A stretch of 64,000 nucleotides of DNA from Rubrivivax sp. Lineage in GTDB: Bacteria > Pseudomonadota > Gammaproteobacteria > Burkholderiales > Burkholderiaceae_C. Each line of letters begins with the position of its first letter. Within the stretch, counting starts at the first letter, position 1. The DNA lies in the NCBI GenBank assembly GCA_027490215.1, contig JAIXYO010000066.1, positions 1-64,000 of the forward strand, in the 5' to 3' direction. Of this stretch, positions 11,222-33,609 are shown one piece after another. The position numbers were made by a program, and so were the translations under genes. A model generated the notes under the pieces. It searched no databases and was not told where the DNA came from. It was given only the letters and a program-made list of their open reading frames with translations.

Positions 11222-12180
11222 GGTCGTGCGCGAAGCGCGTCGTTGACGACCGACATCTGATTCAGTGCCTCGGCCACCCGCGTCGAATGCGCTTTCTGGC
11301 AGTCTTCATGCAGGTGGTACAGCGTGTCGAAGAAGCACGACAGCGGGTACTGCGATCGGTTGGGCAGGACCAGGAAGTGCTGGCCGTGGCGCTCGTACAG
11401 CGCCCGCAGGCGCGCAATGTCGGCGTCGTTGAGCTTGGCGTGGTCGGACGTGGTGGGCAAGCCACCCACGACGACGACACCCTTGGCGCGCATGCGGTCG
11501 AGAAAGCCTTCCACGACCTCGAAGGCCCGCGAATGTTCGGGCAACGGCCGGGTGTCAAAACCCTGCTTGGCCAGAAAGTCGCGATACGCCATGCCGTCGG
11601 CAGCGGTGTGCCCCTTCTGGTCGCCTTGCGGTGTGGTGCCTTCGTTGCCGCCGCGCCGCTGGAATCCGGTGCCGGCCAATGCCATCTCGATGCTGCCGTG
11701 AACGAGGAAGGGCAGATCGAACGAGCCCCAGGCGCGCACGATGCGCCGCAGTCCCAGGGTGTCGAGCCACGCGGCCGACTGGTGGGCGATGGTGATGTTC
11801 TCGGCGCCGCCTTCCATTTCGGTGCGTTCGATGCGGTACTGGCTGTACTCGAGCGGCGCGTACAGCACGTCACCGGTTTGCAGCAGCTTCTCGAAGTTCA
11901 GCAACTGGAAGTCGATGCCGATGCCGACCGCGATCGACAGGTTGACACAGGGCACGCGCAACACCTCGGTGAACGCCTCGCAGCGGTGGCTGTATCGGCC
12001 GTTGCTGCCCGCCCAGATGGCGAGCTTGGGATGCGGAAGGCTGTTGGCGTAATCGGTCTTGCTCTGGAAAGCCGCATCGACGCCGCCCACCGTCAGCGGC
12101 CGCTTCACGACCGAGAAGACGGCGACATACAGGCCGATCGATAGCAGGATCGCGAGCGTCAGGGCCAAGAGCTTCTTCAT
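11218..12180 (-). CDS. SGNH-like periplasmic protein, AlgX/DltD-like partner of the MBOAT protein
   Basis: 320 residues with an N-terminal membrane anchor or signal (MKKLLALTLAILLSIGLYVA). AIWAGSNGRYSHRCE is in the position of the SGNH block I and FFDTLYHLHEDC contains a candidate Asp-x-x-x-His of block V. Genes of this kind sit next to AlgI-type O-acyltransferases and complete the transfer of the acyl group onto the polymer in the periplasm. It lies 22 bases downstream of the AlgI-like gene and overlaps the next gene by four bases, so the three form one operon. Confidence 0.65.
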   Translation of the reverse strand: MKKLLALTLAILLSIGLYVAVFSVVKRPLTVGGVDAAFQSKTDYANSLPHPKLAIWAGSNGRYSHRCEAFTEVLRVPCVNLSIAVGIGIDFQLLNFEKLLQTGDVLYAPLEYSQYRIERTEMEGGAENITIAHQSAAWLDTLGLRRIVRAWGSFDLPFLVHGSIEMALAGTGFQRRGGNEGTTPQGDQKGHTAADGMAYRDFLAKQGFDTRPLPEHSRAFEVVEGFLDRMRAKGVVVVGGLPTTSDHAKLNDADIARLRALYERHGQHFLVLPNRSQYPLSCFFDTLYHLHEDCQKAHSTRVAEALNQMSVVNDALRARP

Positions 12181-12202
12181 GTCTTTAGTTCAGAAATGGA
12201 CT

Positions 12203-13753
12203 TCAGAACTGGAAGTACAAGAACTCGGACGCCTGCCCGTACAACACCTGCTGCAGCGCGAGGGCCGCGCAGGGAACGACCAGCGCATAACGCCAGCGGT
12301 TGCGCAACTCGGGCACGGTGGGCGCACCGAGCGTCAGCGCCATACCGAGCGAGATCATCAGGAACATCTCCACGCAGCCCATCACCGTGCCATCGGCCAG
12401 GTACGGCACCTTGCCCATCCCGTCGGCCACATTAGCCAGCGGCGGCACGAACTTGATGATCTGCTCGGGCAGCAGCGCGCCGTTCATGCCTGCCATGCCG
12501 CGCAGCATCGACATCGCCGCGTCGAGGTCGGCCGCGCGAAAGAACACCCAGGCCACGACGACCGCAGTGAACGTCAGCAGCCAGGCGATCGGTGCGCAAA
12601 CGGGGCGCAGCGTTCGCAATGCTGCGTCGAGGCCGAACGCATCGACGCCGCGGCGCCATGCGTGGAACACCATCAGGTACAGCCCGTGCAGCCCGCCCCA
12701 GATGACGAAGGTCCATCCGGCGCCGTGCCACAGGCCGCCGAGCAACATCGTCACCATCAGGTTGAACTGCTGGCGTGGCAGGCCCAGGCGGTTACCGCCG
12801 AGCGGGATGTAGAGGTAGTCGCGCAGGAAGCGCGACAAGGTCATGTGCCAGCGGCGCCAGAAGTCGGCGATGTTTTTCGCCTTGTAAGGCGAGTGGAAGT
12901 TCATCGGCAACTGCACGCCGATCATCAACGCCAGGCCGATGGCCATGTCGCAGTAGCCGGAGAAGTCGAAGTAGATCTGCAGGGTGTACGACAGGGCTGC
13001 ACCCCAGGCTTCGAAGAAGCTGAGGTCGGTGGTGGACGCCGCGGCAAAGGCATTGCGCGCGTAGCCCCCAAAGGCGTCGGCAAGCACGGTCTTCTTGAAG
13101 AGGCCGAGGATGAAGATCACGCACCCGTCGGCCAGCCTGTCGGCGCTGAAACGGAAGATGTCCGCACGGGCGAACTGCGGCATCATTTCCTTGTGGTGCA
13201 GGATAGGCCCGGCGATCAGGTGCGGAAAGTAGGTGACAAAGAGACCGTAGCGCACCGGGTCGAAGTCAGCCGCCTTGCGCTGCTGCACATCGACCAGAAA
13301 CGCGATCTGGGTGAAGGTGAAAAACGAGATGCCCAGTGGCAGTTCGCCGGCTGGCATGTGCGTGTCTGAACCCATCAGCGCAGCCACGCTGTTGAGCGCA
13401 AATGCGGCGTACTTGAAGTACACCAGCAGCGCGATGTTGGCGGCGATCGACGCAATCAACAGTGATCGGCTCGACCAGCCAGACGCCATTGATTGCTGTG
13501 CTGCAACGGCGGTCTGTGTGCCGGCATCTTCAGTCTGCAACCGCGCTGCGATCGACCGGCCTGCCAGGTAGTTGAAGCCGATCGACGCCAGCATCAGCGG
13601 CAGCCATTGCGGGTTCCACCAACCGTAGAACGCCAGCGAGGCCAGGGTCAGCCAGGCCAGTGCCAGCGCATGACTTCGCCGCGCCAGCAGGAAAAAGCCA
13701 ATCAGTGTCAGCGGCAAGAAGCCGAAGATGAATTCTGGCGAGTTGAACAGCAT
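12203..13753 (-). CDS. MBOAT-family O-acyltransferase, AlgI-like
   Basis: 516 residues, the usual length for AlgI. The N-terminus MLFNSPEFIFGFLPL is characteristic of the family, FWRRWHMTLSRFLRDYLYIPLGG is the conserved MBOAT block, and LLGGLWHGAGWTFVIWGGLHG contains the catalytic histidine. About ten membrane helices are present. It should pass acyl groups, probably acetyl, from a cytoplasmic donor through the inner membrane. With the SGNH-like gene just downstream it makes an AlgI/AlgX-type O-acetylation pair for the polysaccharide encoded here. Confidence 0.9.
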   Translation of the reverse strand: MLFNSPEFIFGFLPLTLIGFFLLARRSHALALAWLTLASLAFYGWWNPQWLPLMLASIGFNYLAGRSIAARLQTEDAGTQTAVAAQQSMASGWSSRSLLIASIAANIALLVYFKYAAFALNSVAALMGSDTHMPAGELPLGISFFTFTQIAFLVDVQQRKAADFDPVRYGLFVTYFPHLIAGPILHHKEMMPQFARADIFRFSADRLADGCVIFILGLFKKTVLADAFGGYARNAFAAASTTDLSFFEAWGAALSYTLQIYFDFSGYCDMAIGLALMIGVQLPMNFHSPYKAKNIADFWRRWHMTLSRFLRDYLYIPLGGNRLGLPRQQFNLMVTMLLGGLWHGAGWTFVIWGGLHGLYLMVFHAWRRGVDAFGLDAALRTLRPVCAPIAWLLTFTAVVVAWVFFRAADLDAAMSMLRGMAGMNGALLPEQIIKFVPPLANVADGMGKVPYLADGTVMGCVEMFLMISLGMALTLGAPTVPELRNRWRYALVVPCAALALQQVLYGQASEFLYFQF

Positions 13754-22976: not shown

Positions 22977-24227
22977 TCAAACCTGCACCATTTCCTTGCG
23001 CAGCAAGTCGGTGGGCAGGCCGAACACCTGCGGGCCACCCACTGCGGTCAGCGACTTGCGCACGAAGCGGTCATCGACCAAATCACCGGCAACGAACTTC
23101 GGATCCAGCGATTCGAGGAATCGGGTGTCTCCCTCGACCTTGGTCTGCCGGATCGCGCGCACCAGCTCTTCGGTGTAGCTGGCAAACGGGTACGGCTGGA
23201 AGTCGATGCGCCGCTGCGCCCAGCCCTTGTGACGCACCACACCGCTGGCTTCGTAGCTGGCGTAGTCGGTGGCCGCCAGCACCTTGGTCATCGTGCGCAG
23301 CGGGTGCGGCGTGTAGCGGCCCTCGCCACTGGTTGACAGCAGCCGGGCGGCATCGGTCTGGTTGTCGCGCGTCCACAGCTGCGCCTTCACGATGGAGGTG
23401 GTCACGCGCTGCGCCCACTCGGGACGCTCGACCAGATCGCGCTCGGCCAGGAAAGTCACGCAGCAGGCGTGGTTCTTCCAGACATCGCCCGAAAAGCGCA
23501 GCACCTTGCCCACGCCGGCGATCTCGGCAGCGGCGTTGAAGGGGTCGGCCACGATGAAGCCTGCGATCGAGCCGGCGGCCAGCGCCGACACCATCTCGGC
23601 AGGCGGCATCACGATCAGGTTGACCTCGTTGGGCGCGGTCTTGGCATCGCGGGGGCGCGTCACCGCCACCAGATTGCTGGCGCGCAGGATCTGCTGCAGC
23701 AGCACGTTGTGGATCGAGTACCAGAACGGAATCGCCACCGTGCGCCCCCCGAGTTCGGCCACGCTGTTGATGCTGGGTGCCACTGTCAGCGCTGAGCCGT
23801 TGACGTGGTTCCAGGCCACGATCTTGGCCGGGAACTTCGAACCGTAGCGCACCCACAGCGCAGCTGGGGTCAGCAGGTGAATCACGTTGACCTGGCCCGA
23901 CACGAAGGCTTCGACAATCTGCGCCCAGCTGCGGAACAGCCGTGGCGCTTCGGCGCGCAGGCCTTCGGCCTCGTACATCTTGCGACCGTGGGCCACGAGC
24001 AGCGGTGCGGCATCGGTGATCGGCAGGTAGCCGATCTTGACCGGCTGGTCATCGCCCTTGAAGGCCTGCGCTCGCGCATCGCCGGCGCTCAGCAGCGGCG
24101 CAGCCACCGCTGCGGTGGCCAGTGCGCCCAGACGCAGCATGTCGCGCCGCGTCAGGCCGCAGCCGCAATCCGATGAGGCGCAGATGTGCGTGTAGCGCGA
24201 GGCCATGGAGGTGTCGATGATCGTCAT
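22977..24227 (-). CDS. ABC transporter substrate-binding protein with Tat signal
   Basis: 416 residues of the NrtA/SsuA/TauA family. The mature domain starts VKIGYLPITDAAPLLVAHGRKMYEAEGL, and IVMPPAEMVSALAAGSIAGFIVADPF is the typical hinge region. TRRDMLRLG followed by a hydrophobic, alanine-rich stretch is a twin-arginine export signal, so the protein is folded before export. An odd feature is a cysteine cluster (CASSDCGCG) just before the twin arginines. The ligand is not readable from sequence: nitrate, a sulfonate, or an organosulfur or organoselenium compound are all possible. Confidence 0.85.
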   Translation of the reverse strand: MTIIDTSMASRYTHICASSDCGCGLTRRDMLRLGALATAAVAAPLLSAGDARAQAFKGDDQPVKIGYLPITDAAPLLVAHGRKMYEAEGLRAEAPRLFRSWAQIVEAFVSGQVNVIHLLTPAALWVRYGSKFPAKIVAWNHVNGSALTVAPSINSVAELGGRTVAIPFWYSIHNVLLQQILRASNLVAVTRPRDAKTAPNEVNLIVMPPAEMVSALAAGSIAGFIVADPFNAAAEIAGVGKVLRFSGDVWKNHACCVTFLAERDLVERPEWAQRVTTSIVKAQLWTRDNQTDAARLLSTSGEGRYTPHPLRTMTKVLAATDYASYEASGVVRHKGWAQRRIDFQPYPFASYTEELVRAIRQTKVEGDTRFLESLDPKFVAGDLVDDRFVRKSLTAVGGPQVFGLPTDLLRKEMVQV

Positions 24228-24254
24228 GGGAGCTTTCTTTGAGGCGGGGTGGAT

Positions 24255-25055
24255 TCAGGAGTGGCGAAGCGAGTGCAAGGCGGCCAGGATGTCAAGCCGC
24301 AGCGCGGTCACTTCGGCGGCATGGTCTTCGCGCGGGCGCTCGATGGATACCGACCATTCGTGCAGTACGCGCGCCGGATGCGTGGGCTGCTTTCGCCCCA
24401 TCAGCAAGATGCGATCGGCCACCAGGATGGCCTCGTCGATGTCGTGCGTGACCAGCAGCGCTGCGGTGTGCCAGCGGTGCACCAGCTCAACCAGCAAGGT
24501 CTGCATCTCGGCGCGAGTGATCGCATCGAGCGCCGAAAAAGGCTCGTCGGCCAGCAGCAGCTGCGGCTCGCGCGCCAGGGCGCGGGCCAGCGCCACGCGC
24601 TGCGCCATGCCTCCCGACAACTGCGCGGGGTAAAGCTTGTCGTGACCCGACAGCGACACCGCCTCAAGCGCCTCGCGCACACGGGCATCAAGCGCTGCCC
24701 GGTCGATCTCGGGCTGGTGCGAGAAATCAAGGCCGAAGCCCACGTTGCCGACGACGTTGAGCCATGGCAGCAGGCTCGGTTGCTGGAACACCAGCGCCGC
24801 CCGGGGGTGCGGCGATGTCAGTGGCTCGCCCAGAAACTCGACCTCACCACGGGTCGGCTCGGCGAGCTTGGCGAGCACGCGCAGCAGCGATGACTTGCCA
24901 CAACCACTGCCGCCGAGCAACGCGACGATTTCGCGCGGGCGCACGTCAAGCGACACCGCCTCGAAGATGGGTTGGCCCTTGCCATACGAAAAAGCCAGAT
25001 CGCGACCGCTCAGCGCGTACGGCGCCGTCGATGCCGCCTCGACCCTGGCGTGCAT
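24255..25055 (-). CDS. ABC transporter ATP-binding protein
   Basis: 266 residues. Walker A is LLGGSGCGKSSLLR, the Q-loop is FQQPSLLPWLNV, the signature is LSGGMAQRVALARALA and Walker B is LLLADEPFSALD. It is of the SsuB/TauB/NrtC class that powers uptake of nitrate or sulfonates. ATG 25055 starts just before the nucleotide-binding domain; the open frame continues upstream to 25226 without a better start. It is the first gene of the importer operon and is transcribed away from the OsmC gene. Confidence 0.9.
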   Translation of the reverse strand: MHARVEAASTAPYALSGRDLAFSYGKGQPIFEAVSLDVRPREIVALLGGSGCGKSSLLRVLAKLAEPTRGEVEFLGEPLTSPHPRAALVFQQPSLLPWLNVVGNVGFGLDFSHQPEIDRAALDARVREALEAVSLSGHDKLYPAQLSGGMAQRVALARALAREPQLLLADEPFSALDAITRAEMQTLLVELVHRWHTAALLVTHDIDEAILVADRILLMGRKQPTHPARVLHEWSVSIERPREDHAAEVTALRLDILAALHSLRHS

Positions 25056-25444
25056 CACCGCGGGCGGACGGCCTGTCGGGCCGTCGGGTGTCTGAAAGGG
25101 TGGAGCGTCATCAGTGAGTCTGGAATGAAAGGCAAAGCCCGCGATTGTTTCACCGCTCGACGAGCGGCGGGAAGGCGAGGCCTCACGAAGGCCCCGGACT
25201 GTGCCGTCACGGCAAGCGTCAGGCAAGCGTCAGGCAAATAATCTTTCCGACTATCCATAGAGCAAACATGTCGATAGGCGTGCACCGTCCACCGCACGTC
25301 GCCCTGACGCCCGCACAGCGAGGCGCGGTGCCTAAAATCGGGGGCTCATCAGATGGATGGCGGCAACACCGAGGCCTCGCGCCTGCAGGTCGTCGCGTCC
25401 GCGGTGCCTCAAGGCGCTCTCAACAATTTCCGGAGACTCATCTC
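25056..25444. promoter_or_regulatory. Divergent control region between the ABC importer and the OsmC operon
   Basis: This gap of about 390 bases separates two divergent operons and should hold both promoters. An 11-base unit GGCAAGCGTCA occurs twice in tandem plus a partial third copy at 25212-25239, directly before an AT-rich patch (AAATAATCTTTCC) that could be a promoter region. A short inverted repeat CCGCTC/GAGCGG lies near 25152. No gene is convincing within it. No known operator could be assigned. Confidence 0.45.
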
Positions 25445-25996
25445 ATGTCATCGACCGACAACACGACCAGAACCGTCAAGACCTACCTGCGTCCGATCGA
25501 CCGCGACGGCCTGCTGGCCTTTGCCGAGAAGGGTCGCAACAACCCATCCTCACGTGGCACCAACAAGGTCCACACTGTCGTCGAAGGCCAGTACCGCACG
25601 CTGAGCTACGTGGGCAACCATGCTCCGGTGGTGGTTGATGAGCCACCTCACCTGTTCGGCCAGGACACCGCACCGGCGCCCGGCGAGATCGTGTTGTCGG
25701 CGCTGGGCGGTTGCCTCGCTGTCGGTATCACCGCCGTGGCCACCTGGAAGCAGGTGAAGTTGAGCAAGCTCGAGCTGTTTCTGGAAGGCGACATCGGAAA
25801 CCCCGCTGCGTGGGGAGCCGGTGGCGCGCTGAAGGCGCCGGCTGACATGGGCTTTCAGGCGGTCCGTGTGAAGGTGGTCATCGAAGGCGACGCCACTCGC
25901 GAAGTGCTCGACGAGATAGTGCAGCACGCCAACATGTATTCGCCTGTGGCCAACAGCGTGCGCAACCCGATCGCGTTCCAGATCGATCTGGCCTGA
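25445..25996 (+). CDS. OsmC family protein
   Basis: 183 residues. APGEIVLSALGGCLAVGI is the OsmC core, with the peroxidatic cysteine at residue 90. The second conserved cysteine of OsmC/Ohr peroxidases is replaced by serine (MYSPV, residue 166). The enzyme is therefore probably not a classical two-cysteine hydroperoxide reductase and may bind or process a thiol or another small molecule. It is 30 bases upstream of the flavoprotein gene in the same direction and is probably co-transcribed with it. Confidence 0.88.
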   Translation: MSSTDNTTRTVKTYLRPIDRDGLLAFAEKGRNNPSSRGTNKVHTVVEGQYRTLSYVGNHAPVVVDEPPHLFGQDTAPAPGEIVLSALGGCLAVGITAVATWKQVKLSKLELFLEGDIGNPAAWGAGGALKAPADMGFQAVRVKVVIEGDATREVLDEIVQHANMYSPVANSVRNPIAFQIDLA

Positions 25997-26026
25997 TCGC
26001 ACATCACACATCCTTGGGAGTCGCCC

Positions 26027-27190
26027 ATGTCAGCCGTGCTCGCCGATACCGCGCCGGAAGCCGTCACCAGCTCGGCAACGCCGCTGGCAACTGCCCGGCA
26101 GTCACTGATCGACGCCGTACGTGAGATCGCCAACGGCGACCTCGCGGCGATGGTCGATGCGATCGATCGGCAGGGCGCCTATCCGAAGGCGGTGCTCAAG
26201 CGGCTGGGCGCGGCGGGCGCCTTGCGGGCGCACCTGCGGGTCGGCGGCCAGCAAGATTACGGCGCGGCCATTGCGGCCATGGCCGAGGTGTCGCGAGTTT
26301 GCGGCGCCACCGGGTTCATGGTGTGGTGCCACGACGCCTGCGGCCTCTACATGGAAGAGTCGGGCAACCCGGCGTTGACCGGTCAGGCGCTGCTTGACCA
26401 CGCCTCGGCGCACTCGCTGGGCGCCACCGGCCTGAGCAACCCGATGAAGAGCTTTGCCGGCATCGAAACCTTCCTGCTGCATGCGCGCCGCGTCGAAGGC
26501 GGCTACCGGGTCAACGGCACGCTGCCGTGGGTCAGCAACCTCGGGCCTGACCACTACTTCGGCGCGGTGGCCGCGGTCGAAGGCACCGAGGGCGGCCACC
26601 AGATCATGTTCATCGTGCGCTGCGACGGCGAGGGCGTCGAGTTGCGTAACTGCCCGTCGTTCTCAGCCATGGAGGGCACCAACACCTGGGCGGTGCGACT
26701 GACCGAGCACTTCATCGGCGCCGACACACTCATCGCCGACCCGGCGCGGCCATTCATCGGCCACGTGCGTGCGGCGTTCGTGCTGCTGCAGTGCGGCATG
26801 GGGCTGGGTGTGGTGCAAGGCGCCATCGACTCGATGTGGGACGTCGAGCGCCCGCTCGGTCACGTCAACGAGTTTCTTGACGAACGTCCCGATGAGCTGC
26901 AAGCCGAGCTCGATGCGCTGACCGAGCGCACGATGCGCCTGGCCCGCACACCGTTTGAAACCAGCACCGAATTCCTGATCGACGTGCTCGACACGCGAGC
27001 CCACGTCTCCGAATTGGCCCTGCGTGCCGCTCAGTCGGCGCTCCTGCACCAGGGCGCGCGCGGCTACCTGATGAGCTCGGCGGTTCAGCGGCGCGTGCGC
27101 GAGTCGCACTTCGTGGCCATCGTCACGCCAGCCGTCAAGCACCTGCGCAAGGAAATCGCGCGGCTCAGCGCCACCGTGGTGCCAGCGTGA
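26027..27190 (+). CDS. Acyl-CoA dehydrogenase-fold flavoprotein
   Basis: 387 residues. The alpha-helical N-terminus, the strand region with [13 protein letters not shown] and [11 protein letters not shown], and [16 protein letters not shown] match acyl-CoA dehydrogenases and the related flavin-dependent monooxygenases (DszC/SfnB-like). The family includes enzymes that release sulfur from organosulfur compounds. No catalytic glutamate could be assigned with confidence. Between an OsmC protein and a rubredoxin-reductase fusion, and facing a sulfonate/nitrate-type importer, a role in oxidising a sulfur or selenium compound is my inference. Confidence 0.8.
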
Positions 27191-27206
27191 AAGCCCGTAC
27201 GGCAGC

Positions 27207-28451
27207 ATGACAGCGCAAGCCTGGCGCACCTTCATCTGCCGAGCCTGCGGCTGGATTTACGACGAGGCGCTGGGCGATGCCGATGGCGGGTTGCCGCCCG
27301 GCACGCGCTTCGAAGACATCCCCGACGACTGGATGTGTCCGCTGTGCGGCGTGAGCAAGGCCGACTTCGAGCCCTGTGAGCCGCTGCCCACGCTGCGGCG
27401 TGCAGCCAGTGCGACGGCGTCGGCCCGACGCGCGGGCACAGGCGGGCGCCACGATGCCGGTGTCGTCATCGTCGGTGCCGGCTGCGCGGGATGGCAAATG
27501 GCGCAGGCGCTGCGCGAGCACGACGCCGACCTGCCGATCACCATCGTCACCGCCTGCTCTGGTCACGTGTACGACAAGCCGCTGCTGTCGGTGGCGCTGG
27601 CCAAGGGCATCGCCCCGGCGGCGCTGGTCAGGCAGACCGCGGAGCAGGCCGCAGCCTGGCTCGGCGTGCGGCTGCTCAAGTGCACGCGAGCCATCAGCGT
27701 GTCGGCCCGCGTGCAGGCCTTGCGCACCACGCGCGGCACGCTGCGCTACCGGCATCTGGTGCTGGCACACGGGGCCGAGCCTCTTGATCTGCCGCAGCTG
27801 CCCGCGGCGCTGTGCTGGCGCATCAACCACCTCGATGCGTACCTGAGGTTCCGCGAACATCTCGGCGAGCCCGGCGCCCAGCCCGTGCAGCGTGTGCTGA
27901 TTGCCGGTGCGGGTCTGGTGGGCTGCGAGCTGGCCAACGACCTCGCGCTGGCCGGCCACCCGGTGACGCTGCTCGACATCAACGAACGACCCCTTGCGCA
28001 GTTGCTGGGCGAAGACACCTCGCGCGAGCTGCTGGCCGCCTGGCAGGGCCTGCCGCTCGAGTTCATCGGCGGGGTGCGCATCACAGGGGTCAGCGATCAA
28101 GACAGCGTGCGCACCGTGCATGCCAACGACGGCCGGCGCTTTGACGCCGAGCACCTGATCGCGGCCACCGGACTGCAAACACCACACCGGCTGGCGCAGT
28201 CGGCCGGATTGAGCTGGAACAACGGCATCGCGGTCGACCCGCTCACCCTGCACACCAACGTGCCCACGATCCACGCGCTGGGTGACTGCATCAGCATCGA
28301 TGGCCAGGCACTGCGTTACATCGAGCCGATCTCGCGTCAGGCAAGGCAGATTGCGGCGACGATCCGCGGCGAGGCGCTGGCACCCTATGACCGCACGGCG
28401 CCGCCGATCCGCATCAAGACTGGCTCACGGGGCTTCACGGTCAACCGCTGA
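27207..28451 (+). CDS. Rubredoxin-NAD(P)H:rubredoxin reductase fusion
   Basis: 414 residues. The first 50 form a complete rubredoxin with CRAC at 11-14 and CPLC at 44-47 for one iron. A linker of about 40 residues leads to a two-dinucleotide-fold flavoprotein with [15 protein letters not shown] for FAD and [14 protein letters not shown] for NAD(P)H, plus LGDC near the end. It should carry electrons from NAD(P)H through FAD to the attached rubredoxin. The gene is 16 bases after the flavoprotein gene, which it could supply with electrons. Confidence 0.9.
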
Positions 28452-28467
28452 GCCAGCGCTGCGCGCT

Positions 28468-29532
28468 TCAGTTCACCAGCAAACGCGGCGCGTCACTGGC
28501 TTTGGTGATGCTGCCGACCACGGCGGCCTGCTCGAAGCCATGGCGGCGGAAGATGGCCAGCACCTCGTCCAGCGCGGCCGGTGCACACGACACCAGCAGC
28601 CCGCCACTGGTTTGCGGATCGGTCAGCAGCGCTTGGTCCTCGGCGGCGAACGCCGATGGCAGCGTCACGTCACTGCCATAGCCGCCCCAGTTGCGACCTG
28701 ATGCGCCGGTGACGAAGCCCTGGGACGCCAACTGGCGAGCGCCGGTCATCAGCGGCACGGCAGACCAATCGAGCTGCACATCGCAACGCGCGCCGCGCGC
28801 CATCTCCAGCGCGTGACCGGCCAAGCCGAAGCCGGTGACGTCGGTCAGCGCATGCACGCCGGGCAGTGCCGCCAGATCCGGGCCCGGCGTATTGAGTTTC
28901 GTGGTGGTGGCGATCATCTGCGCGTAGCCGGCGTCGCCGAGTTCGCCCTTCTTCAGGGCGGCCGACATCACGCCAACGCCTACCGGCTTGCCCAGAACCA
29001 GCACGTCGCCAGGCCTGGCATCGGCATTGCGTTTGACATGCCTGGGGTGCACGAGACCCAGGGCCACCAGGCCGTAGATGGCCTCAACCGAATCGATGGT
29101 GTGCCCGCCCGCGATGGGAATGCCTGCGGCGCGGCAGACCGACGCCCCGCCTTCGAGGATGCGGCCGATGGTCTGCGTAGACAGCACGGCGATCGGCATG
29201 GCCACCAAGGCCAGCGCCATGATGGGCCGACCACCCATGGCGTACACGTCGCTGATCGCGTTGGTGGCGGCGATGCGGCCGAAGTCGAGCGGATCGTCGA
29301 CGATGGGCATGAAGAAATCGGTCGTGGCGATCAGCGCCTGCTCGTCGTTGAGCTGGTAGACCGCCGCGTCGTCGGCGGTCTCGATGCCGACCAGCAGTTC
29401 CTTTGGGATCGGCATCGACGCCGTGCCCTTCAGGATCTCGGACAACACCCCTGGCGCGATCTTGCAGCCGCAGCCGCCCCCGTGGGACAGTGAAGTCAGG
29501 CGAGGTTCGGCGAGCTTGTCGGGTGCGTTCAT
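28468..29532 (-). CDS. senC: Selenide, water dikinase, SelD/SenC
   Basis: 354 residues. HGGGCGCK at residues 17-24 is the active-site motif, with Cys21 and Lys24 matching Cys17 and Lys20 of E. coli SelD; cysteine, not selenocysteine, is used. Glycine-rich ATP-binding segments (TTDFF, NAISDVYAMGG, ALTDVTGFGLAGHA) are intact. It makes selenophosphate from selenide and ATP. The order senC-senB with a divergent senA identifies it as the selenophosphate supplier for selenoneine synthesis, although it could also serve tRNA or selenoprotein pathways. It ends 17 bases from the rubredoxin fusion gene on the other strand. Confidence 0.9.
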   Translation of the reverse strand: MNAPDKLAEPRLTSLSHGGGCGCKIAPGVLSEILKGTASMPIPKELLVGIETADDAAVYQLNDEQALIATTDFFMPIVDDPLDFGRIAATNAISDVYAMGGRPIMALALVAMPIAVLSTQTIGRILEGGASVCRAAGIPIAGGHTIDSVEAIYGLVALGLVHPRHVKRNADARPGDVLVLGKPVGVGVMSAALKKGELGDAGYAQMIATTTKLNTPGPDLAALPGVHALTDVTGFGLAGHALEMARGARCDVQLDWSAVPLMTGARQLASQGFVTGASGRNWGGYGSDVTLPSAFAAEDQALLTDPQTSGGLLVSCAPAALDEVLAIFRRHGFEQAAVVGSITKASDAPRLLVN

Positions 29533-29540
29533 GGTGTGTC

Positions 29541-30518
29541 TCAGTTGATCGATGGCGTCGGCGGATGGAGTAGTTCGCCGATCAGCGCGTGCAGGTTGGC
29601 GGACTCCCGTGTCGGCTCGAACAACGGGGCACGCTCACCGCACTGCTGCTGCAGGTGAGTCAGCTTAGCTGGCTCGTCGCGAAGACGCTGCAGCAGGGTT
29701 GCCAGGGCGGACGCGTTGTCTACCGGGAAATAGCCATCATAGTTTTCACCGAGCAGGCCCACGTTGCCATCGATTCGCGAGGCCAGCACTGGCGTTCCAC
29801 TGCGCACGGCCTCGATCACGACATGGGCGCCGCCTTCCATCCGACTGGGGTGGACCAGCAGGTGGGCGGCCTGGATGCGCCTGCGGGTGGCGGCATGAGG
29901 CAGCCCGCCCAGCCAGCGGTAGCGCGGGTTCTCGGCCGTCAATGCGCCGGCCAGCGCCCCGATTGCGGGGTCGAGTGCCGCACCGACGTGGTCGAGCAGG
30001 ACGTCGGGGCGACCTTTGAGCTGACGCGCTGCATCGAAGTAGGTCTGGGGCGACTTTTCCGCGCGCAGGTGGCCGACCATCAGCGCGCGCAGGTGCTGGC
30101 CGGTCTTGGGCAGCGTCTTGCGCGCGGTGCAGGACTGCAACACGACACGGGCCTTGGAATTCAGTCCCTTGGGCAGAGATTCGGCGCCAAGCTGGTTGAG
30201 CACGATCAGGCGGTCGGCAGCTTCCAGCGAGGCCCGCGCGGAAGTGTCGCTTTCGATGTCTCTGTAGAGGTCGGTGCCGGTGAGCACGACGATCAGGGGC
30301 GCCGCGGGGCGAAGGGTTCGCCACTTCGTCACCGAGGCTGCCGAGCGGCGGGCGTGGAGCGCGACCATCACATCCTCATCGCCGCCGTCCCATGTTGACG
30401 CCAGGCGCACACGGTAAGCTCCCGACAGCATGCGGCTCCAGCGACGGGCCGTTTGCCAGTTGCCATTGTTGGCGTCGGCCAGGGCCGGCGTCACGATCAC
30501 GATATCCCGTCTGTGCAC
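29541..30518 (-). CDS. senB: Selenosugar synthase SenB (GT-B glycosyltransferase-like)
   Basis: 325 residues. DIVIVTPALADANNGNWQTA at the N-terminus and HPSRMEGGAHVVIEAVRSG with its EGG..E motif near the C-terminus identify a GT4-like enzyme of the SenB family. In the described pathway SenB joins selenophosphate with UDP-N-acetylglucosamine to give a selenosugar. It is eight bases upstream of senC. The start is GTG at 30518, only 17 bases from the start of senA on the other strand. Confidence 0.88.
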   Translation of the reverse strand: MHRRDIVIVTPALADANNGNWQTARRWSRMLSGAYRVRLASTWDGGDEDVMVALHARRSAASVTKWRTLRPAAPLIVVLTGTDLYRDIESDTSARASLEAADRLIVLNQLGAESLPKGLNSKARVVLQSCTARKTLPKTGQHLRALMVGHLRAEKSPQTYFDAARQLKGRPDVLLDHVGAALDPAIGALAGALTAENPRYRWLGGLPHAATRRRIQAAHLLVHPSRMEGGAHVVIEAVRSGTPVLASRIDGNVGLLGENYDGYFPVDNASALATLLQRLRDEPAKLTHLQQQCGERAPLFEPTRESANLHALIGELLHPPTPSIN

Positions 30519-30535
30519 GGTCGAAGGTTAACGCG

Positions 30536-31747
30536 ATGACGGTCCTGCTCGAAGACGCCGCCATGGCCCGCCAGGCGGACGCTCACTGGCTGGCTGCGGC
30601 ACTCAGGTCCAGCCGTGACGACACGCTGGCGAAGCTTGAACTGCTCGAACGCTCGCTGGGGCAACTGAGCGTGCCGCAGCGGCAAGCCCTGAATCCTCCG
30701 CTGTGGGAACTCGGGCACATCGGCTGGTTCCAGGAGTTCTGGATCGCACGCAATCCGCTGCGCTTCGTGGGAGCAGCGGCCGACCCCGACGTCCGCCGAC
30801 TGCCCGGGGTGCGCCCGAATGCCGACGCCTTGTACGACTCCAGCAACGTGGCACCCGACGCACGCTGGTCGCTGCCGCTGCCGGACGCCGCGGCCACGCG
30901 CTGCGATCTCGCCGAGCAGCTTGAGGGCACGCTCGCGTGGCTGCGCGATGCCGACGGCAGCAGTGCGGCGCTCTACTTCTTCCGGCTGGCCCTGTTTCAC
31001 GAAGACATGCACCACGAGGCTGCGCTCTACACGGCGCAAAGCCTTGGGGTGGTCATCGCCGATGCGCGCTGGCAGACACCTGCGCTGAGAAACACATGCC
31101 GGCAACTGGCATTCGATGTCGGCTCCTGGAGGCTGGGCAGCAGCGGCACTGGGTTCGCCTTCGACAACGAGCTGGCCGGCCATGCTGTGCGCCTGCCAGC
31201 TGTGTTCATCGACAGCCAGGTTGCCCGCTGGGCTGACTTCCTGGCCTTCGTCGAAGCGGGCGGTTATGGCGAGCCGCGGTGGTGGAGCGAGGCCGGTGCT
31301 GCCTGGCTGGCGACCGAGCGACCGCAAGCACCGCGTTATCTGCGGCGCGACGGATCCACTTGGCAGCAATGGCGCCACGGGTCGTGGCAGGCACTGGACC
31401 TGAACCATCCCGCCTGCCACCTGACCTTCCACGAAGCCGAGGCCTGGTGCCGCTGGGCCGGCCGCAGATTGCCAAGCGAGGCCGAGTGGGAACGCGCAGC
31501 CATTGAACGTCCTGATGACTTCGAGTGGGGCCAGGTCTGGGAGTGGACGGCCAGCCCATTCCTGCCCTATCCGGGGTTCGAGCCTCACCCTTACCGCGAC
31601 TACTCCGCACCATGGTTTGGCAGCCGCCCGGTGCTGCGCGGCGCCTCGTTCATGACGCAGCCGCGCATGCGACATCCGCGCTACCGCAATTTCTTCATGG
31701 CCAACCGCAACGACGTGCCCGCCGGGTTTCGCAGCTGCTCGCTGTAG
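30536..31747 (+). CDS. senA: Selenoneine synthase SenA (EgtB-like)
   Basis: 403 residues. The N-terminal DinB-like domain contains the iron site H-x3-H-x-E (His155, His159, Glu161) and an upstream His61 (WELGHIGWFQEFW). The C-terminal half is an FGE-sulfatase domain (LPSEAEWERA, then GGS-type RGASFMTQPRMRHPRYRNFF). It is homologous to EgtB of ergothioneine synthesis, but the neighbours senB and senC mark it as SenA, which couples a selenosugar to hercynine. An EgtB or OvoA assignment is possible without the context. No egtD is in the window, so hercynine must come from elsewhere. Confidence 0.88.
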   Translation: MTVLLEDAAMARQADAHWLAAALRSSRDDTLAKLELLERSLGQLSVPQRQALNPPLWELGHIGWFQEFWIARNPLRFVGAAADPDVRRLPGVRPNADALYDSSNVAPDARWSLPLPDAAATRCDLAEQLEGTLAWLRDADGSSAALYFFRLALFHEDMHHEAALYTAQSLGVVIADARWQTPALRNTCRQLAFDVGSWRLGSSGTGFAFDNELAGHAVRLPAVFIDSQVARWADFLAFVEAGGYGEPRWWSEAGAAWLATERPQAPRYLRRDGSTWQQWRHGSWQALDLNHPACHLTFHEAEAWCRWAGRRLPSEAEWERAAIERPDDFEWGQVWEWTASPFLPYPGFEPHPYRDYSAPWFGSRPVLRGASFMTQPRMRHPRYRNFFMANRNDVPAGFRSCSL

Positions 31748-31791
31748 TTCGAGGGCATCCCGCGCAGCCAAGGCACACCCCATGCGCCGTG

Positions 31792-33609
31792 TCAGCCCTT
31801 CGCCCAGGTGTCTTTCAGCGTCGTGGTCCGGTTGAACACCGGGCGATCTGGTGTGTGGTCCTTGCGGTCAGCGACAAAGTAGCCGTGGCGCTCGAACTGG
31901 AATCGGTCGTCCGCCTGCGCCGAGGCCAATGAGGATTCGAGGTATGCGGTGACGATGGTCTTGCTGCTGGGGTTCAGCACGGTCAGGAAATCGCGCCCGC
32001 CCGCATCGGGCTGGGCCTCGGTGAACAGGCGGTCGTAAAGACGCACCTCGGCCGAGATGCCAGTGGCCACGCTGACCCAGGTGATCACGCCCTTGACCTT
32101 GACCGCATCGGCGCCCGGTGTGCCGCTCTTGGTGCCGGGCACCAGCGTGGCCAGCACGGCGGTGACGCGGCCTGCGTCGTCCTTCTCGCAGCCGGTGCAT
32201 TCGATCACGTAGCCGTATTTCAGCCGTGACTTGCTGCCTGGCTGCGCCACACCGGCCGCATCGGTGCGCGGTGGGCTCAGGCGGAAGAAGCCTTTGCTGG
32301 GCTCTTCCATGAAATCTTCGCGCTCGATCCACACCTCGTTCGTCAGCACGAAGTCGCGCTGGCCTCGTTCAGGATGCGCCGGATGAACCGGTGCGTGGCA
32401 GGGCTCCTGATGCGACACACTGCCGAACACCTCGGCGAAATTGGTCAGCTTCAGCTTCAGCGGGTCGAGCACGGCGCAGGCGCGCGCGGCCTTCGGGTCG
32501 AGGTCGTCGCGCAGCGCGATGTCGATGGCCGAGTAGTCGAGCCATCCTCCAACCTTGTTGACGCCGCTGCGCTCGGCCAGCAGTTGCAGGCTCTCCGGCG
32601 TATAGCCGCGCCGGCGCAGGCCGACGATGGTCGGCATGCGCGGGTCGTCCCAGCCCTGCACATGGCCCTCGTCGACCAGCAGCTTGAGCTTGCGCTTGCT
32701 GGTGATGATGTAGGTGATGTTGAGCCGCGCGAACTCGTACTGGTGCGGGCGCGGCTGTTTCGTCAGGCCCAGCGTGCACAGCGTGTCGAGCAGCCAGTCG
32801 TAGAAGGGGCGCTGGTCTTCGAACTCGAGCGTGCAGATGCTGTGGGTGATGTTCTCGAGCGCGTCTTCGATCGGGTGGGCGTAGGTGTACATCGGGTAGA
32901 TGCACCAGGTGTCGCCGGTGTTGTGGTGCGTCGCGCGCTTGATGCGGTAGATGGCCGGGTCGCGCAGATTGATGTTCGGCGAGGCCATGTCGATCTTCGC
33001 GCGCAGCACCGCCGCGCCATCGGCCAGCTTCCCGTCGCGCATTTCGCGGAAGCGGGCGAGGTTCTCTTCTGGCGTGCGGCTGCGGAAGGGGCTGTCGGTG
33101 CCAGGCGTGTTGAAGTCGCCGCGGTTCGCGCGCATCTGCTCGGGCGTCTGCTCATCGACGTAGGCCAGGCCGGCGGAGATCAGCGCCTCGGCGGCGCGGT
33201 ACATGAAGTCGAAGTAGTTGCTGGCGTAGTAGAGGTGACTCTCCCAGCCGAAGCCCAGCCACTTCACCGCGTCGAGGATCGAGTCGACGTACTCCTGCTC
33301 TTCCTTCTCCGGGTTGGTGTCGTCGAAGCGCATGTGACATACGCCGCCGTAGTCACGTGCCAGGCCAAAGTTCAGGCAGATGCTTTTGGCGTGTCCGATG
33401 TGCAGGTAGCCATTGGGCTCGGGCGGGAAGCGGGTGCGGATGCGTGCCGGGTCCAGCGGGCCGTTGGCGTGGTGGGCAGCATCGCCCGGCGTACCGGCGA
33501 AGGTGCGGCCGGCATACGTGCCCTGGGCCAGATCGCGCTCGATCACCTGTCGCAGGAAATTGCTCGGCTTGTTCTCGTCAGGCGGGGTCGGGCGGGCGGG
33601 TGCGGTCAT
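31792..33609 (-). CDS. glnS: Glutamine-tRNA ligase
   Basis: 605 residues. PPEPNGYLHIGHAKSICLNFG holds the HIGH motif and ITSKRKL the KMSKS equivalent, both in class I order. The C-terminal half has the anticodon-binding beta-barrels. ATG 33609 is preferred over an upstream in-frame start at 33636 because the shorter form is the usual length in this group. Bases 33610-33853 upstream hold no gene. It charges tRNA-Gln directly. It converges with senA, 44 bases away. Confidence 0.95.
   Translation of the reverse strand: MTAPARPTPPDENKPSNFLRQVIERDLAQGTYAGRTFAGTPGDAAHHANGPLDPARIRTRFPPEPNGYLHIGHAKSICLNFGLARDYGGVCHMRFDDTNPEKEEQEYVDSILDAVKWLGFGWESHLYYASNYFDFMYRAAEALISAGLAYVDEQTPEQMRANRGDFNTPGTDSPFRSRTPEENLARFREMRDGKLADGAAVLRAKIDMASPNINLRDPAIYRIKRATHHNTGDTWCIYPMYTYAHPIEDALENITHSICTLEFEDQRPFYDWLLDTLCTLGLTKQPRPHQYEFARLNITYIITSKRKLKLLVDEGHVQGWDDPRMPTIVGLRRRGYTPESLQLLAERSGVNKVGGWLDYSAIDIALRDDLDPKAARACAVLDPLKLKLTNFAEVFGSVSHQEPCHAPVHPAHPERGQRDFVLTNEVWIEREDFMEEPSKGFFRLSPPRTDAAGVAQPGSKSRLKYGYVIECTGCEKDDAGRVTAVLATLVPGTKSGTPGADAVKVKGVITWVSVATGISAEVRLYDRLFTEAQPDAGGRDFLTVLNPSSKTIVTAYLESSLASAQADDRFQFERHGYFVADRKDHTPDRPVFNRTTTLKDTWAKG

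Follow-up and report, generated by a model that had tools for sequence, protein, structure and literature searches.

The selenoneine (sen) cluster of Variovorax paradoxus reportedly goes back to an original paper in Nature in 2022 (doi 10.1038/s41586-022-05174-2), as cited in later work. The window analysed here, a stretch of 64,000 nucleotides from Rubrivivax sp. (assembly GCA_027490215.1, contig JAIXYO010000066.1, positions 1 to 64,000), contains three neighbouring genes, senA, senB and senC (Table 1). The cluster of V. paradoxus DSM 30034 comprises the same three families, as described in PMC9814287, PMC10891094 and PMC10702425, and each of the window proteins exceeds the curated cut-off of its family. 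The pathway is already known, and these genes add one more cluster to that kind. The locus is very probably a sen cluster of the type described from V. paradoxus, a reading that draws on the family scores, the active-site residues, the solved homologues, the iron-site triad of SenA, an egtD gene in the genome, a single SelD over the cut-off and the presence of MnmH with no SelA found. A preliminary description of this DNA had matched the genes to SenA, SenB and SenC, and the assignment is upheld beyond chance by scores over all three cut-offs and by the solved homologues; domain searches, named there as a possible refutation, place the proteins inside the SenA and SenB families.

Table 1. Features of the sen cluster and of its divergent junction, in window coordinates
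Feature	Positions	Strand	Remarks
senC, selenide, water dikinase (SelD)	28468-29532	-	TIGR00476, 422 bits (cut-off 125)
senB, selenosugar synthase	29541-30518	-	GTG start; TIGR04348, 451 bits (cut-off 300)
senA, selenoneine synthase	30536-31747	+	NF041186, 501 bits (cut-off 420)
Gap between the divergent senB and senA start codons	30519-30535		17 bases
TAACCT, candidate -10 box of senB	30525-30530	-	6 bases ahead of GTG
AAGG, possible Shine-Dalgarno sequence of senA	30524-30527	+	8 bases ahead of ATG; overlaps the senB box

The open reading frames of all three genes are intact at these coordinates, with an 8-base spacer between the end of senB and senC. Pfam domains are FGE-sulfatase and DinB_2 in SenA, glycosyltransferase group 1 in SenB and AIRS in SenC. 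By sequence, the nearest solved chains of SenB are those of SenB itself (8jjq/8fbx, E about 1e-106), and the nearest of SenA are likewise SenA chains (8k5i/8ryz, E about 1e-119). Fourteen mutagenesis-tested or active-site residues of V. paradoxus SenB, chiefly K158 and N20/T23/E231, were taken from PMC10891094. By alignment, 13 of these 14 are identical in the window SenB, the exception being V157, which is replaced by Glu. The iron-site His residues of SenA (H61, H155 and H159) are all present. We take these to be the iron ligands, as the corresponding positions are in EgtB. SenC contains the motif GGGCGCK, whose Cys is presumably the reactive Cys of SelD. In a tree of 119 rows, which omits short or cut SenA reading frames, the window SenA is placed among SenB-linked SenA proteins and not with EgtB (SH-aLRT 99 with L010, then 99 with L012 and L015), and the three-His triad is intact in it and in 72 of the 72 other SenB-linked rows.

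The genome consists of 72 contigs, is listed as 99.6% complete, and has the window on contig C44. The preliminary description had supposed that hercynine must come from another locus, and a genome search for egtD did find it elsewhere, as a single match on contig C70 (343 bits for PF10017; 381 bits for TIGR03438, cut-off 291). On that contig, egtD (25398-26291) lies about 13 kb from mnmH/selU (11550-12461). MnmH/SelU scores 357 bits against a cut-off of 220, and SelA has no match in the genome at E 0.001. SenC is the only SelD over the cut-off, the other match reaching 40 bits, and as the sole such protein it probably feeds MnmH (tRNA selenouridine) as well. In addition, a separate sulfur-type EgtB is encoded on contig C61 (545 bits; TIGR03440 cut-off 360). 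In this EgtB (L002/L167), a single frame of 721 aa, the EgtB part follows a fused rhodanese domain of UPF0176/TrhO-like type; among 17 distinct EgtB loci, many with short flanks, that domain was seen at this genome's locus only. The gene content would allow selenouridine, selenoneine and perhaps ergothioneine to be made, with no sign of SelA-dependent selenocysteine. Going by family membership and published work, SenC would convert selenide to selenophosphate, SenB would form a selenosugar from selenophosphate and a UDP-sugar, and SenA, as an iron enzyme, would couple the selenosugar to hercynine supplied by the EgtD of the other contig, after which selenoneine would be released. The locus offers a clean, checkable case of a sen pathway whose hercynine comes from a separate locus.

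A scan for SenB yielded 280 confirmed loci, the best 80 of which were kept for comparison. Among these best 80 of 280, senA stands head to head with senB in 56, and egtD lies within the fetched flanks, which are short on some contigs, in 39; egtD, senA, senB, senC is a frequent order in relatives. No egtD was found in the fetched flanks of the nearest relatives (L010-L022). Eighty genomes were drawn from the family, the window's own included; SenB occurs in 29 of them and SenA over the cut-off in 27; a SenA-family match adjoins SenB in 21 of the 29 SenB genomes by hand count, and 5 of the remaining 8 carry one over the cut-off elsewhere. By these counts, the sen cluster is ordinary for its group. 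The selenium-specialised metabolism that had been suggested for this strain was overstated in view of the frequency of SenB in the family, the unlinked egtD of the nearest relatives and the retention of a sulfur-type EgtB.

It is improbable that the cluster chiefly yields a selenosugar or other selenometabolite instead of selenoneine: SenB can stand apart, 8 of the 29 SenB genomes having no adjoining SenA-family match, but the window SenA is linked, over the cut-off and in possession of its iron-site His residues, and egtD is encoded in the genome. Still more improbable is a silent or decaying cluster, an idea to which nothing in the sequence itself lends support; egtD is unlinked here, as against 39 of the best 80 of 280 loci with it in the fetched flanks, but it is unlinked in the nearest relatives too, and the intact reading frames, the conserved catalytic residues and a base composition like that of the flanks (GC 0.674 against 0.673 and 0.663) argue against silence or decay. 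Horizontal transfer, judged by composition, was rejected on the same equality of GC.

Fifteen of the best 80 of 280 loci have a senB with neither a head-to-head senA nor egtD directly upstream (e.g. L013, L014, L018, L022, L026 and L048); these include L070, whose senA lies upstream in the same orientation, and L087, which starts near a contig end. Several orphan senB loci retain senC, and such loci could supply selenosugars for another use. An apparent remnant of the 5' end of senA was recognised by eye at L011. At L037, L049, L062, L075, L078 and L085 the nearest SelD-like gene lies about 1.2-1.3 kb behind senB and its product is 31-36% identical to the window SenC; to judge by sequence it is a different type of SelD. 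On the other side of senC, the flank at 22977-28451 carries NMT1-type ABC importer genes together with genes for an OsmC-like protein, an acyl-CoA dehydrogenase-like protein and a rubredoxin-reductase fusion. The gene for the fusion runs on the strand opposite to senC and ends 16 bases short of it. The OsmC-like protein weakly matches an OsmC-related (seleno)protein model (53 bits against a cut-off of 95). Searched against the best 80 of 280 senB loci at E 1e-8, the queries for the rubredoxin reductase, the acyl-CoA dehydrogenase, OsmC and the substrate-binding protein had 0 matches, the permease had 2, and the ABC ATPase, a query that any ABC ATPase can match, had 36. After these neighbour searches a functional tie of the flanking genes to sen was dropped, and they are treated as unrelated.

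The 17-base divergent gap reported in the preliminary description is real and usual among relatives: across the 56 loci with head-to-head senA among the best 80 of 280, the gap has a median of 17 and extremes of -9 (overlap) and 90, and 11 of these loci overlap by 6 bases. L010, L012, L015 and L016 likewise have exactly 17 bases, lying between a GTG of senB and an ATG of senA. GTG 30518 is the sole ATG, GTG or TTG of senB that retains the conserved N-terminus, since the frame meets a TAA at the fourth codon upstream. For senA, translation could alternatively begin at ATG 30563, with a gap of 44, or farther upstream, the frame being open to 30392. ATG 30536 is favoured by the AAGG ahead of it and by the equivalent ATG picked in L010, L012, L015 and L016, although start picks in relatives were anchored on the window's proteins and are biased towards the window's starts. 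It had been argued from the gap that either the two promoters overlap each other's coding sequence or the starts lie elsewhere. The starts look right; for senB the point can be sharpened, as a conserved -10-like box lies in the gap and any -35 would fall in the first codons of senA, and no promoter was found for senA, upstream of which the relatives have no enriched TANNNT distance.

The motif TANNNT occurs exactly 6 bases ahead of the senB start, at -12 to -7 relative to the start codon, in 34 of the best 80 of 280 loci, against a mean of 0.58 and a maximum of 4 of 80 over 300 mono-nucleotide shuffles. This is the classical -10 place if transcription begins at the senB start codon. Controls gave 0/58 for senC, 0/49 for senA and 1/11 for EgtB, and other reading frames (at least 200 aa, first start taken) gave 15/766 (Fisher p 5e-27, a test that ignores shared ancestry). 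Three of 36 egtD starts have TANNNT, above the shuffles (mean 0.2), and egtD may sometimes be leaderless too. Under a looser rule (TANNNT or TATANN at 5-8 bases), 48 of the best 80 of 280 senB genes have a box, and 32 of 81 senB starts, window included, have none at that distance. Sixteen further loci of the family draw, outside the 80 and excluding the window, showed the strict box in 1 and the looser one in 9. Among the 35 box carriers, window included, which were selected for T, A and T at -12, -11 and -7, the other conserved positions by frequency are C at -8 and G at -14 (each 32/35), the rest remaining below 0.5 bit except -13 (0.66) and -18 (0.58); no conserved -35 stands out.

Shine-Dalgarno (SD)-like motifs are rarer ahead of senB than in shuffles (5 of the best 80 of 280 against 12.5, and 0 of the 34 box carriers), common ahead of senC (35/58 against 6.6) and slightly enriched ahead of senA (15/49 against 10.9). 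The senB of the window has no SD-like motif upstream and has its -10-like box 6 bases ahead of the start, as expected of a leaderless gene, for which such a box would end 6-7 bases before the start codon. Because the box lies at a fixed distance and SD motifs are scarce before senB, we consider senB to be probably leaderless. In this model, senB and senC would be read from a promoter with its -10 box inside the 17-base gap, the 5' end of the transcript would fall at, or within about 2 bases of, the senB GTG (about 30518), and senB would be translated without a leader, while these bases, read on the opposite strand, may serve as the ribosome-binding site of senA. The conservation of the box is observed, and transcription from it is what we infer.

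Several points stand against the leaderless model, namely the weak match of TAACCT to TATAAT (3 of 6 bases), a sigma-70 consensus promoter scan of 28380-31900 that returned no site, the lack of a conserved -35, the boxless senB starts, the single strict box among the 16 further family loci, the boxes ahead of egtD and the merely slight enrichment of SD-like motifs ahead of senA. GTG is, moreover, uncommon as a leaderless start, and the shared ancestry of the loci means that the tests overstate independence. One terminator-like site was found in 28380-31900, inside senA, which is below the shuffle mean of 2.1. Synonymous-site conservation at the junction showed no excess in 57 senB and 55 senA sequences; in a close set of 8 senB sequences, codons 1-20 were higher (0.70 and 0.81 against 0.62), a result from few pairs that was set aside.

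TANNNT might instead be kept merely through the ribosome-binding site or codons of senA, the senB promoter lying deeper in senA and giving a normal leader. The CCT of the box reads as AGG, an SD core, on the senA strand of the window and of several loci with a 17-base gap, and in the relatives that overlap by 6 bases the box lies inside senA. This explanation is nonetheless unlikely in our view, since among the best 80 of 280 loci the box is kept in 8 of the 15 that have neither a head-to-head senA nor egtD directly upstream and is present in 0 of the 9 senB genes directly behind a same-strand egtD, and since a leadered transcript of senB, a gene without SD motifs, would miss a normal ribosome site. 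Two of the 8 (L011 and L017) resemble, by eye, recent losses of senA and carry less weight.

Burkholderia is another genus of the order to which the window organism belongs. Mapping in Burkholderia cenocepacia has shown leaderless transcripts immediately preceded by a TA-rich motif: 72 primary starts coincide exactly with the annotated start and a further 42 lie at most 10 bases upstream, 24 of those leaderless transcripts being tRNAs (PMC4603805). Within a limited literature collection, no publication joining leaderless transcription and selenoneine was found. The leaderless model is a concrete prediction of how a 17-base divergent gap can function, and if it is true, expression of senB from its native start would depend on the host and on the start context.

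A second SenA-like protein of this genome (L003/L165; contig C63:9869-11098) scores 469 bits against the SenA cut-off of 420, and its gene has a MurB gene on one side and a ZnuA-type gene on the other. Its HxxxH reads REDML, so that two of the three iron-site His residues are gone. The 119-row tree places it with L107, to which it is 87% identical, inside a clade of 37 rows (SH-aLRT 100) that is separate from the window SenA. Four added full-length relatives (G001, G003, G006 and G007), with the placement displayed for 3 of the 4, join the clade under a simpler model (41 rows, SH-aLRT 100); they come from genomes with SenB and an adjoining SenA, that of G007 being cut by contig ends, and the full triad is present in 0 of the 4. 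Among members of the 41-row clade, an intact triad is found in 12 of the 14 from genomes that carry SenB but no second SenA, in 3 of the 15 from genomes that encode a canonical SenB-linked SenA as well, and in 1 of the 12 from genomes lacking a SenB match, absence of SenB or SenA being uncertain in those clade genomes that are incomplete MAGs. This split, which the four added relatives strengthened, gave Fisher p values of 0.0006 and 0.0001, not corrected for ancestry and with genome status assigned by hand; the triad-less exceptions in the SenB-only group are L107/G002 and L115/G016. The count leaves aside unfetched matches with a profile end at 381 (taken as EgtB uninspected), partial matches in G072, G074, G034, G004 and G005, and weak FGE-type matches.

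Conserved neighbours were considered as a clue to the function of these paralogues and gave no explanation: 16 of the 37 loci share a protein cluster for which the one member scanned proved to be a TRAP transporter subunit, and 13 of the 37 share another for which it was a LysR-type/PBP protein. No publications on selenoneine synthase or EgtB paralogues that lose their iron ligands were found in the literature search. The iron-site test parts likely selenoneine synthases from look-alikes over the annotation cut-off, and would correct counts of producers. We hold, with slightly better than even confidence, that the senA-senB spacer has a double use in a large betaproteobacterial sen group, as a leaderless -10 box and, in clusters like this one, as the senA ribosome site, tying transcription of the selenosugar arm to translation of the synthase, and that a paralogue clade mostly lacks the triad where there is another SenA or no SenB, with at least this genome's member over-annotated as selenoneine synthase. 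The leaderless senB model and the SenA iron-site split are the parts worth testing.

Among known systems, EgtB (TIGR03440) is of the same superfamily as the window SenA, with DinB_2 and FGE-sulfatase domains and a three-His site, but the window SenA reaches 235 bits where the EgtB model requires 360, and the tree places it off the EgtB branch. OvsA selenoxide synthase (PDB 8u41, 8ux5) is selenium-using by its deposited name and similar in sequence, although its match to the window SenA (E 3e-41) is far weaker than that to SenA (1e-119). The window differs from V. paradoxus in the unlinked egtD of its genome and in the Glu at SenB V157, and the divergent arrangement of senA and senB-senC is found likewise in Variovorax soli (L035).
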